Source of the DNA: Bdellovibrionales bacterium Ga0074139
GTDB taxonomy: Bacteria; Bdellovibrionota; Bdellovibrionia; Bdellovibrionales; Bdellovibrionaceae
Length of the DNA stretch: 64,000 nucleotides
Assembly: GCA_001464795.1 (NCBI GenBank)
Contig: LNEB01000008.1
Coordinates: 1-64,000 of the forward strand
Reading direction: 5' to 3'
Below, piece by piece: positions 18,673 to 25,050 of the stretch. How positions within the stretch are numbered: position 1 is the stretch's first letter; each line of letters starts with the position of its first letter. The notes beneath the pieces are model-generated. The model was not told the DNA's origin, did no database searches, and saw only the letters and a program-made list of their open reading frames with translations. Made by a program: the position numbers and the translations under genes.

Positions 18673-19749
18673 TTACCCAATAAGTTTACTTGCAAGCAAA
18701 ACACTACGTTCAACTAAATGAAACGATTCTTCGTGAAGATGTTCAGACTTTTTTACATAATCCATGTTTTTTTCCATATCTTCTGAAGACCACCCTAAGG
18801 AGTGTGCGACAAAGGGAAAGGCAGGAGTCGAAAAACCGAGCTCACCAAAAAATGTAAGCATTTGACCCGCAACTGATTGGATATTGTCTTGTCCACCCGT
18901 GATAATCAAACTGACGACTTTATTTTGAATTAAAACTTTATTCTTCATCGTGATCTGATTTTGTACACTGTTCAATCTTTCTGCCATTTTATAATAAAGC
19001 GAACTTGCACCGCCCCAGCGAATGGGACTTGAGACAACCACAACGTCAGCCCAATGAACTAAATTTTCATAAACAACAGTCATTTCATCTGTAGGATCTA
19101 TTTTTGTAATCGAGCAAGGCCAAGTGCAGGCTTTTTCTGATTTAGAATAAAATCCTTCGCAGTTTCGAATCTTAAGACTTGATAGAGATAGAAATTTTGT
19201 TTCGACCTGAAGCTTTGAAGATGCTTGATCAAGAGCTGATTTCAAAAGCTCTTCAGAAGTCGAATAACGTGGATTGTCTTGATCCATAGCCGTCGTTGAT
19301 AAACCAAGAACCCGAATGGGACCTGGCTCTCGCTTGGGCTCCCTTCCCAAATTCCCTTTCATATTATAAACAGCTGGCACCCGCTTGGACTGCTGAGACA
19401 AATTAATAAATAAAGAATCTCCTTCTGTTTTCAATGGAAAATGAGGAACACTTCCAGCTGTCGAAGTAAAATGCTTAGAGGCCTCGACGGTCAGGGATTC
19501 CCCTGTAGCATGATTAAATTGCCAGTAGTGCCAGGGACAAACCACACAGCCATTTTTAAGTTTCCCCTTCGATAGTGGGCCACCCATATGGTTACACTTA
19601 TTATTAAGCGCTCCCCATTTATTTTCAAAATAAGAGAGCACAATTTTTTTATCCTCAAAAGTGATTTCTTTTAAACCACCATTTGATTCCAGCTCTTTAA
19701 TTAATTCTTGAGTCTTGCCTACTAACGTCCAAATATTGTTTTCATCCAT
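18673..19749 (-). CDS. Fusion of Rieske [2Fe-2S] ferredoxin and NADPH-dependent FMN reductase domains
   Basis: 358 aa. The Rieske domain (about 5-115) has the cluster ligands Cys52-x-His54 and Cys71-x2-His74 (KCNHMGG, VCPWHYWQF). After a linker comes a flavodoxin-like domain (about 140-350) starting IRVLGLSTTAMDQDNP, with WADVVVVSSPIRWGGASSLY as the flavin-binding segment and VSLIITGGQDNIQS. One protein would thus pass electrons between FMN and a [2Fe-2S] centre. Partner and substrate are unknown. The gene is 13 bases from the next leftward gene upstream and likely shares its transcript. Confidence 0.85.
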   Translation of the reverse strand: MDENNIWTLVGKTQELIKELESNGGLKEITFEDKKIVLSYFENKWGALNNKCNHMGGPLSKGKLKNGCVVCPWHYWQFNHATGESLTVEASKHFTSTAGSVPHFPLKTEGDSLFINLSQQSKRVPAVYNMKGNLGREPKREPGPIRVLGLSTTAMDQDNPRYSTSEELLKSALDQASSKLQVETKFLSLSSLKIRNCEGFYSKSEKACTWPCSITKIDPTDEMTVVYENLVHWADVVVVSSPIRWGGASSLYYKMAERLNSVQNQITMKNKVLIQNKVVSLIITGGQDNIQSVAGQMLTFFGELGFSTPAFPFVAHSLGWSSEDMEKNMDYVKKSEHLHEESFHLVERSVLLASKLIG

Positions 19750-19761
19750 GGATTTTAAATA

Positions 19762-21129
19762 CTACAGAACGTCCACCGGGCAAAGATATTTGTAACCTTC
19801 TTTGCTTATAACTTGGCTTCCTTGCATTGTGCCCACCACAGAGTCTGAATTGACCTGGAGCTCTTTGCCACGGACCTGAATTTTTTCTTCAGGCACCATA
19901 GCGTAGCTATAAGCATTTCTGCAAGCTGCATTGAAGTCATCAATAATCACAGCGCCTTTATGAATTTTTAAATTTGTTTTGTAATCAGGTGATAGAAAAA
20001 GATGATCAACCGATAAAGGGAATAATTCTTTATTCAGCTCTGCTGAAAATGCAAAAAACTGAGGACGTAAATTGGACTGCAAATATTGAGAAATAAAAGG
20101 AACACGAATCATTTTTTTATCTTTCCATGCCTTGATGGCAGGATCTAGTGCGCTTGCGTACTTTTGATTAGTCTTTACGCCGGTCGCTTGAAACTGACTC
20201 ACGAGCTTTTCAGGTGGAGGTGTGGATTCAACCGACTGAACTCCTTCAAACAAAATTTCCAAAGGTGATTTCCCATCCTCGATTTGGGCATTCCAGTCTG
20301 CTAATTTGATATCACTAAACCGCAAAATTAAGGAGGCAAGCCCTCCAACTGGATAGCCTTCACTATCAAGAGAAAAATAATCTCCATCAAGAGCGTAAGC
20401 AAAACCATCATCAGCCATTAGATTTTTCATGACTTGAGCTTTTAAAATCTGGTCATCGGCCTGACAGCCTAATTGACTGACAGCCAATGCAACGCTTTCC
20501 GCATAGGTCGCACTACCTTCAAAGCGATCTGTGGCCATCTGTGTTTCCAATACATGCTCACGGCTCCATTTTTCAAACCAGAATTTAGCGCTCTGCAAGT
20601 CTTCAAGTTTGTTTTCTATGAAAAAATTCTTCAGATGATCAAACATCATTCTTCGATAAAGTCTTGGTTGCCAAGAAACGGGATACACTGTCCCACGCCC
20701 TGAGCTTCCGCGGTTTTTCCAGCCGCCTTGACCCGCGTAATGAAAAAATTCATGGGCTCCAAATTTAAAAAGCTGGTCGTCGTTTTTTAGGTCTTCATCA
20801 CTCATATCTAAAGACATGGCTTTCTTGCCGTCGAACATAAAAAAATTGTAGGTACTACCTAGAGTCCCTGAATCCAATGTACTGTTTTTGACTGACTTGA
20901 GTTCATCTTTCGAGACATCCCACACCCAAGAGTCTTCGCTTTGAGGGTAGATGAGAACAACAACTAACGATTTCCAATCAAAACCACTCCAAATTTTTTC
21001 TGGGCAGTCGACTGTGGGAATTTTGAACTGGGAAACAAGTTCTGTCACTTCACGAGGGGCTGCTGGATTAGCCACAGCACCACTGATTATAAAAAAATAC
21101 ATGGTAATAAAAAATGAGATTTTAAACAT
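19762..21129 (-). CDS. Secreted HExxH metallopeptidase-like protein
   Basis: 455 aa from ATG 21129, chosen because it begins a clean signal peptide (MFKISFFITMYFFIISGAVA) after AGGT. HEFFHYAGQ with His126, Glu127 and His130 is the zinc-peptidase signature. A third ligand may be a Glu in the ALETQMATDRFEGSATYAES-like segment further on, where GSATYAESVA looks like a gluzincin helix. No catalogued family is recognised. The protein is likely exported to the periplasm or outside. It is followed after 12 bases by the Rieske-flavodoxin gene. Confidence 0.65.
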   Translation of the reverse strand: MFKISFFITMYFFIISGAVANPAAPREVTELVSQFKIPTVDCPEKIWSGFDWKSLVVVLIYPQSEDSWVWDVSKDELKSVKNSTLDSGTLGSTYNFFMFDGKKAMSLDMSDEDLKNDDQLFKFGAHEFFHYAGQGGWKNRGSSGRGTVYPVSWQPRLYRRMMFDHLKNFFIENKLEDLQSAKFWFEKWSREHVLETQMATDRFEGSATYAESVALAVSQLGCQADDQILKAQVMKNLMADDGFAYALDGDYFSLDSEGYPVGGLASLILRFSDIKLADWNAQIEDGKSPLEILFEGVQSVESTPPPEKLVSQFQATGVKTNQKYASALDPAIKAWKDKKMIRVPFISQYLQSNLRPQFFAFSAELNKELFPLSVDHLFLSPDYKTNLKIHKGAVIIDDFNAACRNAYSYAMVPEEKIQVRGKELQVNSDSVVGTMQGSQVISKEGYKYLCPVDVL

Positions 21130-21240
21130 GAATTTACCTACTTTTTTGAATTTGCAGTTTACCAAATGTATTGATTCATGGGGCTAAATGAATACTCAAT
21201 AAAATGATTTTACTGTTGTAGATAAGTTTGACATCTTAAA

Positions 21241-21270
21241 CTCGCACCAACGGATGGGGTGCGAGTTTTT
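21241..21270. terminator. Hairpin terminator between two leftward genes
   Basis: CTCGCACC (21241-21248) pairs with GGTGCGAG (21258-21265), followed on the plus strand by five T. Read leftwards it lies directly after the M56-transglycosylase stop and is followed by TTT. It therefore closes the BlaI operon, with the stronger T-run on the opposite strand. Confidence 0.65.
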
Positions 21271-21281
21271 CGTTCTTGTCG

Positions 21282-22892
21282 CTATTGAACGGATTCAGGA
21301 TTCTTCATTATTAAAATAGCTGCCATTAGCTTAGGTAAATAATCTTTATCGCCCTCATAGCCATTACGAATGAGCTTCCATGCATCCCGTGTTTCTAGAG
21401 AGTCCATTCCTTTTTGGACCGCATTTTCACCCATATTGTAGGCGAGTGCTGAAAGATGCCAATCTTTGAATCTCAGGTGATTGGATTGTAAATACCTCAT
21501 GGCCGCATCTGTTAACAAAATGATATCTAGCCGCTCATCTTTGTATTTATCCACACGAAGACCAAAATTTCTTGCTGTTTGGGGAATGAATTGCCAAATT
21601 CCTGCCGCTTTTGAAGACCTATTACTTTGCTGTGAAAGGTTTTGATAACCTGATTCGATAATGGGCACTGCCAATAATTCTAAAGGAAGTCCATATTTTT
21701 TTATATGCTCTTGAATGATGGCTTTATGAGTTTCCATTCGGTCTAAAGAACTTCTTATAAACATTCGGCCCTCAGGTGTACCAATGAATCGATTGAGTTG
21801 CTTCAATACCAGATCATTCATCACAATTGGAAACTCAGTGCTCAGCTGAGCCTGTTCTGCCATGACGTTGGCTTGAGCGAGACTGACTCTTCGGTCCTGA
21901 ACAATTCCGCTTGTTGCAAAAGCACCTATCGACATGAGCGAGATGATAATAAGACTTATGATATTAACAATCGGCTTTCTAATTTTGACTTTTGGTTTTG
22001 AAAACATTTTTTCTATCCTTCTGTAAAGTAGATTGCGATCAATTAAAAACATAAGACCTGTGGCGCGGACAGGTAAATGTTTTTGATGAATCGCGGTTTG
22101 GGCCACCTCGACGAGGCAGCGTGCATAAGCCTGAGACTCAACTTTATTACGGTCGACCAATGTCTCGTCACAGGCAAATTCTTGAATTTCTGCAATCCAG
22201 CGATTCCATAAATAAATCGCAGGATTAATAATACATACCAATTTCAATATCCACATTAAGTAAACCCAACGAGTGTCACCATTTCGATGATGCTGAATTT
22301 CATGAGCAATGGCCATTCTGTAGTTTTCATTATGGCCAATAAAACTTGCAGGCAGCACGATATTGGACTGTCCAGGTAGCCAATAGGAAAAAGGCACGTG
22401 AATGTTATCGTTTAAAAGGATGTGGACTTGGCCAATGGATTTAATAAGAAATGAATTTCTCTTTAGTTTTAACAGTCTTCTAAAATCACGGAAGGTAAAC
22501 CAAAATCCCAAGATAAGAATAAAAGATCCAATTGCCGACCATGCCGAAGAGATGTCATGAGCTTGAACAGCTGTAACTCCTCTTGCATTCGACATTATTA
22601 AAAACCCGCTGTTTTTGGAGGACTGATACTCCTTAGCAAAATTTTGAGTCGAAACAGAAGACCATATCTTTGCAGTTGGTTCGAAAACCTTATTTTGCGG
22701 AAAAAGTGGTTGAATCAAAGCTAAACATAAAGTGAATATGATTAAGCCGTAATGAAGTTGGAGTTCCTGTTTTGACTCTATTTGAGTATTTAATTTTTTT
22801 AAAAAAAATGAAAAAATACTAAGACCAAAAAAGGCGATTATGATCAAAACGTTCAAATTCACATAAGCTGAAAGTACCTGGGCCAGGTTCAT
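21282..22892 (-). CDS. BlaR1/MecR1-like M56 metallopeptidase fused to a lytic transglycosylase domain
   Basis: 536 aa. Membrane segments occur near 12-32, 45-62, 115-132, 205-228 and 305-325. The cytoplasmic zinc-protease site HEIQHH has His197, Glu198 and His201, with Glu near 238 in EIQEFACDE. After the last membrane segment, a periplasmic SLT domain (about 390-530) carries the catalytic Glu413 in IIESGY, then AGIWQFIPQTARNFGL and ALAYNMGENAV, as in MltD-type enzymes. In BlaR1 this outer position holds a penicillin-binding sensor. The start overlaps the BlaI stop by 4 bases. Sensing of peptidoglycan state followed by BlaI cleavage is inferred. Confidence 0.9.
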   Translation of the reverse strand: MNLAQVLSAYVNLNVLIIIAFFGLSIFSFFLKKLNTQIESKQELQLHYGLIIFTLCLALIQPLFPQNKVFEPTAKIWSSVSTQNFAKEYQSSKNSGFLIMSNARGVTAVQAHDISSAWSAIGSFILILGFWFTFRDFRRLLKLKRNSFLIKSIGQVHILLNDNIHVPFSYWLPGQSNIVLPASFIGHNENYRMAIAHEIQHHRNGDTRWVYLMWILKLVCIINPAIYLWNRWIAEIQEFACDETLVDRNKVESQAYARCLVEVAQTAIHQKHLPVRATGLMFLIDRNLLYRRIEKMFSKPKVKIRKPIVNIISLIIISLMSIGAFATSGIVQDRRVSLAQANVMAEQAQLSTEFPIVMNDLVLKQLNRFIGTPEGRMFIRSSLDRMETHKAIIQEHIKKYGLPLELLAVPIIESGYQNLSQQSNRSSKAAGIWQFIPQTARNFGLRVDKYKDERLDIILLTDAAMRYLQSNHLRFKDWHLSALAYNMGENAVQKGMDSLETRDAWKLIRNGYEGDKDYLPKLMAAILIMKNPESVQ

Positions 22893-23290
22893 TTTCTCAC
22901 TCCTGCTTTACTTATTAGTTTTTTAAGCTCCTTGATGTCATCTTCATTAAGTTGTGTTGTATCAAGAAGCTGCCTAACAAGGGCCATGGGAGTTCCATCG
23001 AAAACACGCTCTACGACATGTTTGACAGTTTTAATTTCGTAATCAGACTTTTTGATTTGCGGTGTATAAACATGTCCGCGGCCTTCTTTGCGGGTTTTTA
23101 AAATCCCTTTTTGCTCTAAAATGCGCAAGATAGTGGAAACCGATGTGTAAGCGAGTTCTCGCTCTTTGGGTAGCTGCTGAAGCACATCTGATACAGTTCC
23201 TTCACCCAGCTTCCATAACAAAGTCATTAATTCGAGCTCAGTTTCGGTGAGTAGCTTATTGTCATTTTCTTTGAGACTTAATTTTTTCAT
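22889..23290 (-). CDS. BlaI/MecI/CopY-family repressor
   Basis: 133 aa, the normal size. The winged helix has TETELELMTLLWKLGEGTVS, then LAYTSVSTILRILEQKGIL and the wing RKEGRGHVYTP. The C-terminal dimerisation region (RQLLDTTQLNEDDIKELKKL) is typical. In the Bla system the partner M56 protease cleaves the repressor; here that partner is encoded next, with a 4-base overlap. A 38-bp inverted repeat directly upstream of the start is the expected operator, so the pair should be autoregulated. Confidence 0.93.
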   Translation of the reverse strand: MKKLSLKENDNKLLTETELELMTLLWKLGEGTVSDVLQQLPKERELAYTSVSTILRILEQKGILKTRKEGRGHVYTPQIKKSDYEIKTVKHVVERVFDGTPMALVRQLLDTTQLNEDDIKELKKLISKAGVRK

Positions 23291-23301
23291 TTCTAAAATG
23301 T

Positions 23302-23339
23302 AACTAAGAATTTAGTAGTTAACAACTAAATTCTTAGTT
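23302..23339. promoter_or_regulatory. Inverted-repeat operator of the BlaI-type repressor
   Basis: AACTAAGAATTTAGT (23302-23316) and ACTAAATTCTTAGTT (23325-23339) are perfect 15-base inverted arms around AGTTAACA. The repeat starts 12 bases upstream of the repressor ATG. The ACTA/TAGT cores resemble known BlaI half-sites (TACTA). Confidence 0.75.
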
Positions 23340-23421: not shown

Positions 23422-25050
23422 ATGAAATTAAAAATTATAGCGTTATTCTTCCTACCCTTACTCACGTGGGCTGATCATTTTGCAACAGAGAGAAAAACCT
23501 CTATTCAACTGTTTGATGCCTATATTAACGAAATCAACCGCTTGGACGGAGATGGGCTGCTGCCAAGGCACAATAGAAAGTTAAGCTGGCAGCAAATCAC
23601 AAAAAAACTTAGAAATGATTTAGAAGATTCACAAAACTCTTTGGAATTGGGCCGAGTCTTTTCAAGACTAGATGCAGCCTACCCTAATTTACACGCTCAT
23701 ATTAAACTGGGTTCTAATTATGATTTTAATAGTGAAGGCAAAGCCATGCTGGCCGTTGGCTTTAAGCCCGAAGTTGTCTCTGAAGATGGTATTGTTTCAA
23801 AATATTTGATTTCCAGTGTTAAAAGCCAATATTTCATTCATCTTGATCCAAAAGACAGGCCGCAAACCGGTGATGAGCTGATTGCAATTAATGGCGTTGA
23901 TATAAAAAAATGGGCAGATGAAAATTTTGAATACTGCAAGTTTCCGCTTAGAAGCCAATGTGAGCTTGAGTTTTGGGATAATCTAAGAAAAGGAAATCTT
24001 TCTTGGTTCAGGCGGCAGCCGCTGAAGTTTTCACTTAGGCGTGATGAAAAAAAAATAAATGTGATAATTCCTGTCTTTGCAAATATCGAAAAATCTGAGG
24101 CTAAAAATTTAAAGCCCTGCGGCAATGAACCCGCCAGGTATCCAGAATTTAAAATGGTCTATCAGGGCTTTCATGCCTGTGTTTATGAAAATAAAAATCT
24201 ACCAGGCACTTCACTTTTAAGGATTAGAAGTTTTCGTTATGACCGAGGTGTGACCGTAAATGGCATTGATGGGGTTTCAAAAGAAGTTCAGCAATTTGCG
24301 ACTCAGTATTGGAATAAGAAGGCCAAACAAACAAAACACCTGATCATTGATGTGGTGGATAATTGGGGCGGTGATGTGGTGACTCAATGGTCAGCTCAGT
24401 TCCTCGATCAAGACTTTCAAGATCAATGGGTGCAATTTAAAAAAACAAAAGAACTTGAAGATCCCGATTGGAGAAATCAAGCCTTTTACCAAGATAAAGG
24501 CAAACTCAAGATCTATGAAAACCTAAGGGCTTCAGAAAAATGGAATAACATTCGAGAGGGTGAGTATATCCCAACAATGCCGCAATTTTGCCCTTCTCAA
24601 AATGATGATTGCTTAACTGAAAAGTTTTCCTCGATTAAGAAAGCTTACAAGGGAAGAGTTTCTTTTTTAACAGATCCTTGGTGCATCTCCTCTTGTGTTG
24701 GTTTTGTTTGGACACTCAAATATTATTTAAAAGAACGTGCTCAATTTGTTGGCCTCCCTGATTCTGGAGACTCGACTTATTCTAGATCCTATTTAGAAGC
24801 TACTTTCATTAATCAAGGCCAAGATTTCAAAATATCCGTTCACCCAAGGCCTGCACAATCAAAAGCTGAGGTATCAAAAGAAAGTTTCTTCAGATCTGCA
24901 ATTTCCACCTCCAGATCCACTGATGAACTTGGTCAGGTGATCTCAGGAACTCCAATGAAAATGAATCATTATGTGTCAATTAAGTGGAATGAATCCCAAG
25001 ACGAGTGGGTGGCAAGACTCATTCAAAAAGCTAGCGATCCTGCTTTTTAA
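23422..25050 (+). CDS. Secreted S41-family (tail-specific protease-like) peptidase
   Basis: 542 aa. A signal peptide (about 1-17, ending TWADH) leads to a helical N-terminal region, a PDZ-like segment (GDELIAINGVDIKKWADE, about 150-170), and the S41 core with KHLIIDVVDNWGGD and FLTDPWCISSCVGFV, where a Ser after CI is the probable nucleophile. The Cys pairs suggest disulphides in an exported protein. The catalytic Lys is not assigned with certainty. The gene stands alone downstream of the BlaI promoter region in the opposite direction. It overlaps the convergent zinc-ribbon gene by 20 bases. Confidence 0.75.
   Translation: MKLKIIALFFLPLLTWADHFATERKTSIQLFDAYINEINRLDGDGLLPRHNRKLSWQQITKKLRNDLEDSQNSLELGRVFSRLDAAYPNLHAHIKLGSNYDFNSEGKAMLAVGFKPEVVSEDGIVSKYLISSVKSQYFIHLDPKDRPQTGDELIAINGVDIKKWADENFEYCKFPLRSQCELEFWDNLRKGNLSWFRRQPLKFSLRRDEKKINVIIPVFANIEKSEAKNLKPCGNEPARYPEFKMVYQGFHACVYENKNLPGTSLLRIRSFRYDRGVTVNGIDGVSKEVQQFATQYWNKKAKQTKHLIIDVVDNWGGDVVTQWSAQFLDQDFQDQWVQFKKTKELEDPDWRNQAFYQDKGKLKIYENLRASEKWNNIREGEYIPTMPQFCPSQNDDCLTEKFSSIKKAYKGRVSFLTDPWCISSCVGFVWTLKYYLKERAQFVGLPDSGDSTYSRSYLEATFINQGQDFKISVHPRPAQSKAEVSKESFFRSAISTSRSTDELGQVISGTPMKMNHYVSIKWNESQDEWVARLIQKASDPAF

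Follow-up and report, generated by a model that had tools for sequence, protein, structure and literature searches.

BlaR1 and MecR1 are familiar as proteins that detect antibiotics. In the BlaR1-BlaI and MecR1-MecI systems of staphylococci and Bacillus licheniformis, an M56 protease carrying a penicillin-binding (SxxK) sensor is accompanied by an adjacent BlaI-type gene and an autoregulated operator, with a beta-lactamase or PBP2a as the target. In BlaR1, the extracellular loop EL1 fills the active site of the sensor until a beta-lactam displaces the loop, and signal peptidase cuts the linker that follows transmembrane segment TM4 (PMC9834060).

We analyzed a stretch of 64,000 nucleotides from Bdellovibrionales bacterium Ga0074139 (here, the window), in which a blaI-type gene is followed by a gene encoding an M56 protease. 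The pair shares with BlaR1-BlaI and MecR1-MecI the full M56 active-site set, the adjacent BlaI-type gene, and a probably autoregulated operator, as well as a predicted TM4-tethered extracytoplasmic domain, a predicted EL1 loop, and a signal-peptidase-like site after TM4. In contrast to BlaR1 and MecR1, an intact lytic transglycosylase (SLT) domain replaces the penicillin-binding sensor, no beta-lactamase or PBP2a target is present, and tandem ACTAA-N4-TTAGT dyads form one self-directed site. The fusion is not a BlaR1, having neither a penicillin-binding domain nor a resistance gene under its operator, but judging from its sequence it would work like one.

An M56-M23 architecture, which like the present fusion joins M56 to a peptidoglycan hydrolase, is listed in a review of M23 hydrolases, where the section concerned discusses no SLT domain, repressor, or regulation (PMC9662197). 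We found no description of M56-SLT proteins or of their operator family in the open-access literature; subscription papers lay mostly outside this search, and priority is not established.

The blaI-M56-SLT operon and its distribution

The fusion gene (P0001; positions 21282 to 22892 of the window, minus strand) is an unbroken open reading frame (ORF) of 536 amino acids with no internal stop. Pfam finds Peptidase_M56 at residues 52 to 280 (positions 22053 to 22739, minus strand; 1.8e-19) and SLT at residues 392 to 506 (positions 21375 to 21719, minus strand; 3.3e-20), both above the curated cutoffs, and homologous fusions exist at 49 loci. The HEIQH site, Glu413, and the AGIWQF motif of the original prediction are all present as claimed, with HEIQH at residues 197 to 201, Glu413 within ESGYQN, and AGIWQF at residues 430 to 435. 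A missed stop separating off the SLT part, or an assembly artifact, is ruled out as the source of the fusion because both Pfam families lie in one ORF in 44 of 44 aligned homologs. A single copy from a metagenome-assembled genome (L045) is split at a run of N.

The repressor gene (P0002; positions 22889 to 23290, minus strand; 133 amino acids) lies upstream of the fusion ORF and overlaps it by 4 bp, in agreement with the overlap first proposed. In the window genome (2.9 Mb, 97% complete), no Penicillinase_R gene other than blaI occurs, and a single gene exceeds the M56 family cutoff. On the 3' side of the operon, a hairpin at positions 21238 to 21268 (minus strand; 11-bp stem, -18 kcal/mol, z score of -3.6) is a possible terminator, its T tail being short on the operon strand. 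Farther downstream are a 467-aa ORF with no Pfam match (19762 to 21165, minus strand) and a single ORF in which a Rieske [2Fe-2S] domain is fused with one resembling NADPH-dependent FMN reductase (18673 to 19749, minus strand). On the other side, a divergent S41-type peptidase gene (23422 to 25050, plus strand) starts 83 bp from the BlaI operator and could be affected by it in the window genome; this neighbor is not conserved at the other fusion loci compared.

A domain search for further M56-SLT fusions and their link to BlaI, run with a profile of 12 homologs, bore out the association. Of 369 genomes of the phylum, 49 contained fusions, patchily distributed over 15 families, and blaI lies directly upstream in all 46 SLT-type loci with readable upstream DNA; the remaining 3 of the 49 begin or end at the gene. 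The same 4-bp overlap recurs in 40 gene pairs (SLT-type and transpeptidase-type fusions taken together; see below), and no neighbor other than blaI is conserved among the loci compared. Homologs come mostly from draft assemblies, and because of the kinship among relatives, conservation in this set is not phylogenetically independent. The system is dispensable, since about 87% of the genomes of the phylum, including both congeners searched, lack the fusion. Its closest copies, at 60% identity, occur in other families, and horizontal movement of the operon inside the phylum is therefore likely.

Beyond the phylum, the full operon turned up in a single genome, one of 395 searched from the phylum that contains L006 (Desulfobacteraceae). 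This copy (L129; G622:C218), a complete blaI-M56SLT operon with a tandem operator, is 52% identical to the Bdellovibrionota copies and possibly reflects transfer or, alternatively, misbinning or contamination. None of 395 genomes from the phylum to which L005 (Bacteroidetes) belongs had the operon, and no plasmid record covered 80% of the fusion protein.

The BlaI repressor and its operator

The window BlaI matches PF03965 (Penicillinase_R) at 5.4e-33 over profile positions 1 to 114 of 115 and aligns end to end with MecI (PDB 1sd6; 2.9e-12; MecI alignment 7 to 122). Its full length is accounted for by a winged helix and a dimerization domain, as in repressors of the BlaI/MecI family. In the alignment, the MecI cleavage site N101-F102 stands opposite Q107-L108 of the window protein.

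Upstream of blaI, the anticipated 38-bp operator was found at positions 23302 to 23339 as a 19+19 inverted repeat that is 95% complementary. It contains tandem dyads, ACTAA-N4-TTAGT, at positions 23325 to 23338 and 23303 to 23316, 22 bp apart from center to center, and is predicted to bind BlaI. A 38-bp pattern made from the repeat matched nothing when the window was shuffled 100 times. Such a tandem dyad precedes 44 of the 46 SLT-type blaI genes with readable upstream DNA, usually with 8 bp between the dyads and 22 bp between their centers; of the two exceptions, one is cut by a contig end and the other has its dyads further apart.

The second dyad sits between the boxes of a predicted sigma-70-like promoter (positions 23297 to 23325, minus strand), whose -35 box TTGTTA (23320 to 23325) is separated by 17 nt from the -10 box TACATT (23297 to 23302). 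This prediction rests on conservation across loci, the blaI promoter being absent from the output of a generic promoter scan. At most SLT-type loci, the final T of the upstream dyad forms a conserved TTGnnA together with the spacer, and TAnnnT follows 17 nt on, just past the second dyad. A position between the promoter boxes is a classical place for repression. By sequence, a dyad operator therefore lies within the repressor's own promoter, as is characteristic of BlaI and MecI.

A strict pattern with up to three mismatches allowed finds a single tandem site, the one before blaI-M56, in the window genome and likewise in 10 of the 14 relatives searched; in the other four relatives, the operator departs from the search pattern. 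Single dyads with one mismatch show no excess in the window genome (22, versus 54 for a reversed control). A BlaI regulon elsewhere in this genome was rejected on these two grounds, the absence of a further tandem site at three or fewer mismatches and the lack of a single-dyad excess. As far as an operator search can tell, the operon evidently controls only itself, and BlaI may bind weaker sites that escape a consensus search. Neither a beta-lactamase nor a low-affinity penicillin-binding protein appears as a target: the genome lacks a second operator, and no neighbor is conserved. Because the operator stands solely before blaI-M56, the only evident output is the SLT domain of the fusion itself.

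Active sites of the two halves and their possible coupling

The HEIQH zinc motif (positions 22290 to 22304, minus strand) contributes H197, E198, and H201, which are invariant in 44 sequences. The profile of the fusion family, over residues 16 to 323, matches residues 7 to 325 of the BlaR1 cryo-EM chain 8exp at 1.7e-15. In this alignment, H197, E198, H201, D206, E238, D242, Y256, and R292 correspond to BlaR1 H201, E202, H205, D210, E242, D246, Y261, and R294, which are zinc ligands or active-site residues according to the cryo-EM paper (PMC9834060). All eight are invariant in the 44 aligned homologs, whose identity to the window protein ranges from 27 to 60%, and the claim of a complete M56 zinc site is thereby confirmed. 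The NCBIfam BlaR1/MecR1 models score the fusion far below their cutoff (27 of 400 bits). By hydropathy, five hydrophobic segments follow the order expected for an N-out, C-out topology with a cytoplasmic protease. The AF2 model, built on five sequences, is unreliable for the M56 half (pLDDT under 50) and good for much of the SLT domain only, where pLDDT is mostly 74 to 91 and lower at residues 411 to 430.

The SLT domain has the fold, the catalytic Glu, and the conserved motifs of MltD-like lytic transglycosylases. Glu413 (codon at positions 21654 to 21656, minus strand), G431, W433, and F435 of the AGIWQF motif (positions 21588 to 21605, minus strand), and Y485 are all invariant in the 44 homologs. 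The NCBIfam MltD model matches at 8.7e-26, yet below that model's cutoff, and the nearest solved structure is MltD both by sequence (PDB 8rhe) and by fold (8rhf). The fused domain resembles the catalytic domain of this family 1 enzyme in its Glu, AGxWxF, and Y-N-x-G motifs; unlike MltD, it is tethered to a protease and matched no LysM repeats. Since the active-site residues of both halves are intact and invariant, both look catalytically competent, and the fact that Glu413 never varies speaks for an active enzyme rather than a domain that only binds.

In a quick tree search with long branches, the fused SLTs branch apart from the sampled stand-alone SLTs of the phylum, 14 of which form one clade with 100% support, and a chance duplication of a housekeeping SLT was rejected on this basis. 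Small SLT proteins that are close relatives of the fused type but stand alone are encoded at L103 (4784 to 5476, minus strand) and L117 (785 to 1432, minus strand), in genomes G204 and G086; both have N-terminal signal peptides, and neither locus has BlaI or M56. The G204 protein has a signal peptide ending in EAAAS and an ESGYQN motif that keeps the catalytic Glu, and this type of SLT domain can therefore apparently serve as a plain secreted enzyme.

Two further features of the fusion recall BlaR1. (i) The predicted loop EL1 (about residues 65 to 116; positions 22545 to 22700, minus strand), between hydrophobic segments 46 to 64 and 114 to 132, contains FEPTAKIWSS at residues 70 to 79. A P-x-[AV]-K-x-W-S-like motif is present in this loop in 37 of 47 SLT-type proteins but in 0 of 12 transpeptidase-type proteins, against 1.9 expected in shuffled loops; the motif was derived from the same sequences in which it was counted, and their relatedness inflates the count. 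Its restriction to one domain type suggests coupling between loop and SLT. (ii) TM4 (residues 308 to 326; positions 21915 to 21971, minus strand) ends in AFA/TS, a signal-peptidase-I-like site with its predicted cut point at A326/T327. A strict AxA stands at the end of TM4 in 36 of 54 proteins, compared with 8 of 194 other TM ends.

The SLT-type-specific motif in EL1 helps to make it plausible that the SLT domain senses peptidoglycan. In a sensor-only version of the first proposal, it would do nothing else: the domain would bind muropeptides or strands, catalysis would be incidental, and the important genes would lie elsewhere. The EL1 motif fits such a role, as does the position of the domain, which is equivalent to that of the BlaR1 sensor. 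However, if the domain did nothing but bind, Glu413 should have disappeared from some of the 44 divergent homologs, and it is lost in none; moreover, the window genome has no second operator through which other genes could be reached. We regard a pure sensor as rather improbable.

Sister fusions and a candidate wall-sensing circuit

Twelve loci have BlaI and M56 joined to a non-SLT C-terminal region, two of them cut by contig ends, and a PF00905 transpeptidase domain was found in all seven sister fusions scanned. These fusions of M56 to a class-B-PBP-like transpeptidase, with tandem operators, are located at L049 (3770 to 5854, minus strand) and L106 to L116. They share gene order with the SLT type, have a related M56, BlaI, and tandem operator, and differ from it in the PF00905 domain, in the operator flank, and in the absence of the EL1 motif. 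A quick tree with long branches groups the M56 halves of the ten full-length sisters in a single clade (support, 98) that excludes all 45 M56 halves of the SLT type. The flank reads T-dyad-A in 11 of 11 sister loci, versus A-dyad-T in 41 of 42 SLT-type loci. Because six genomes contain both types, the change of flank probably insulates the two circuits from each other. At L113, a third ACTA...TAGT dyad follows the tandem pair before the transpeptidase-type blaI. A further gene behind blaI, at L048 (5640 to 7559, minus strand), encodes an M56-SLT-M23 protein, in which a BlaR1-type protease is combined with a lytic transglycosylase and an M23 endopeptidase domain. Judged by these architectures, one protease-repressor chassis is paired with different peptidoglycan enzymes (SLT, SLT-M23, and transpeptidase).

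The sister family, with its kindred BlaI and operators and its presence beside the SLT type in six genomes, would also fit a response to antibiotics, in which the circuit reacts to wall damage, the transglycosylase clears faulty peptidoglycan, and the transpeptidase sister senses beta-lactams directly. Yet the operator was not seen to control any beta-lactamase or resistance gene, the neighbors are not conserved, and the window genome, with its single M56 gene over the cutoff, is without a sister system. A beta-lactam response thus seems very unlikely.

A stronger competitor, though still an unlikely one in our estimate, holds that the SLT domain is only an induced wall enzyme carried on a membrane protease and that the signal comes in by another route, such as a cytoplasmic peptidoglycan fragment bound to BlaI or membrane strain. 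Direct binding of a peptidoglycan dipeptide to BlaI is described for B. licheniformis, where it destabilizes the BlaI-DNA complex (PMC3305447). The operon's being its own sole operator site, the invariant catalytic Glu, the signal-peptidase-like site, and the free-standing SLT relatives with signal peptides all agree with a pure effector. Against it, EL1 differs by type of C-terminal domain and the M56 halves split cleanly along the same line, which suggests that the two halves communicate.

We place about even confidence in a BlaR1-like circuit that regulates itself and has the transglycosylase as its sensor of the wall and also as the enzyme it induces. BlaI dimers on the two adjacent dyads over the blaI-M56SLT promoter would keep expression low. 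The fusion would span the inner membrane, with its zinc protease towards the cytoplasm and its MltD-like transglycosylase in the periplasm. Glycan strands engaging the SLT groove, or displacement of the EL1 loop, would unlock the M56 protease, which would then cleave BlaI. Derepression of the operon would raise the amount of transglycosylase, and signal peptidase might release part of it. Both active sites, the linkage to blaI, the operator, its overlap with the promoter, its single occurrence, the AxA site, and the loop motif are seen in the sequences; from them we infer BlaI cleavage, the peptidoglycan signal, SLT catalysis, and shedding. The original prediction of a signaling circuit accordingly keeps its core, a BlaR1-like protease-repressor circuit with a lytic transglycosylase in place of the penicillin-binding domain, which is well supported. 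It changes in one respect: with the operator only before its own operon, SLT is also the evident output.

A broader proposal, to which we give somewhat less than even credence, is a closed-loop cell-wall homeostat. A single protein would at once act as a receptor for peptidoglycan, as the protease directed against the repressor, and as an enzyme that cuts peptidoglycan and can be released, and its chassis would have been reused with SLT, SLT-M23, and transpeptidase domains, the SLT and transpeptidase versions having distinct, insulated operators.

The existence of a large family that has the same protease and repressor but intact wall enzymes in the sensor position suggests a wider design for wall sensing, with the sensing of beta-lactams as one of its branches. 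Bulgecin is bound in the MltD structures. The fusion family gives a direct way to test how a cytoplasmic M56 protease is gated by an extracytoplasmic enzyme domain. For the organisms themselves, the circuit would be a new means of dosing an autolysin that is dangerous to the cell; among the members of the phylum are predators living by peptidoglycan cutting.
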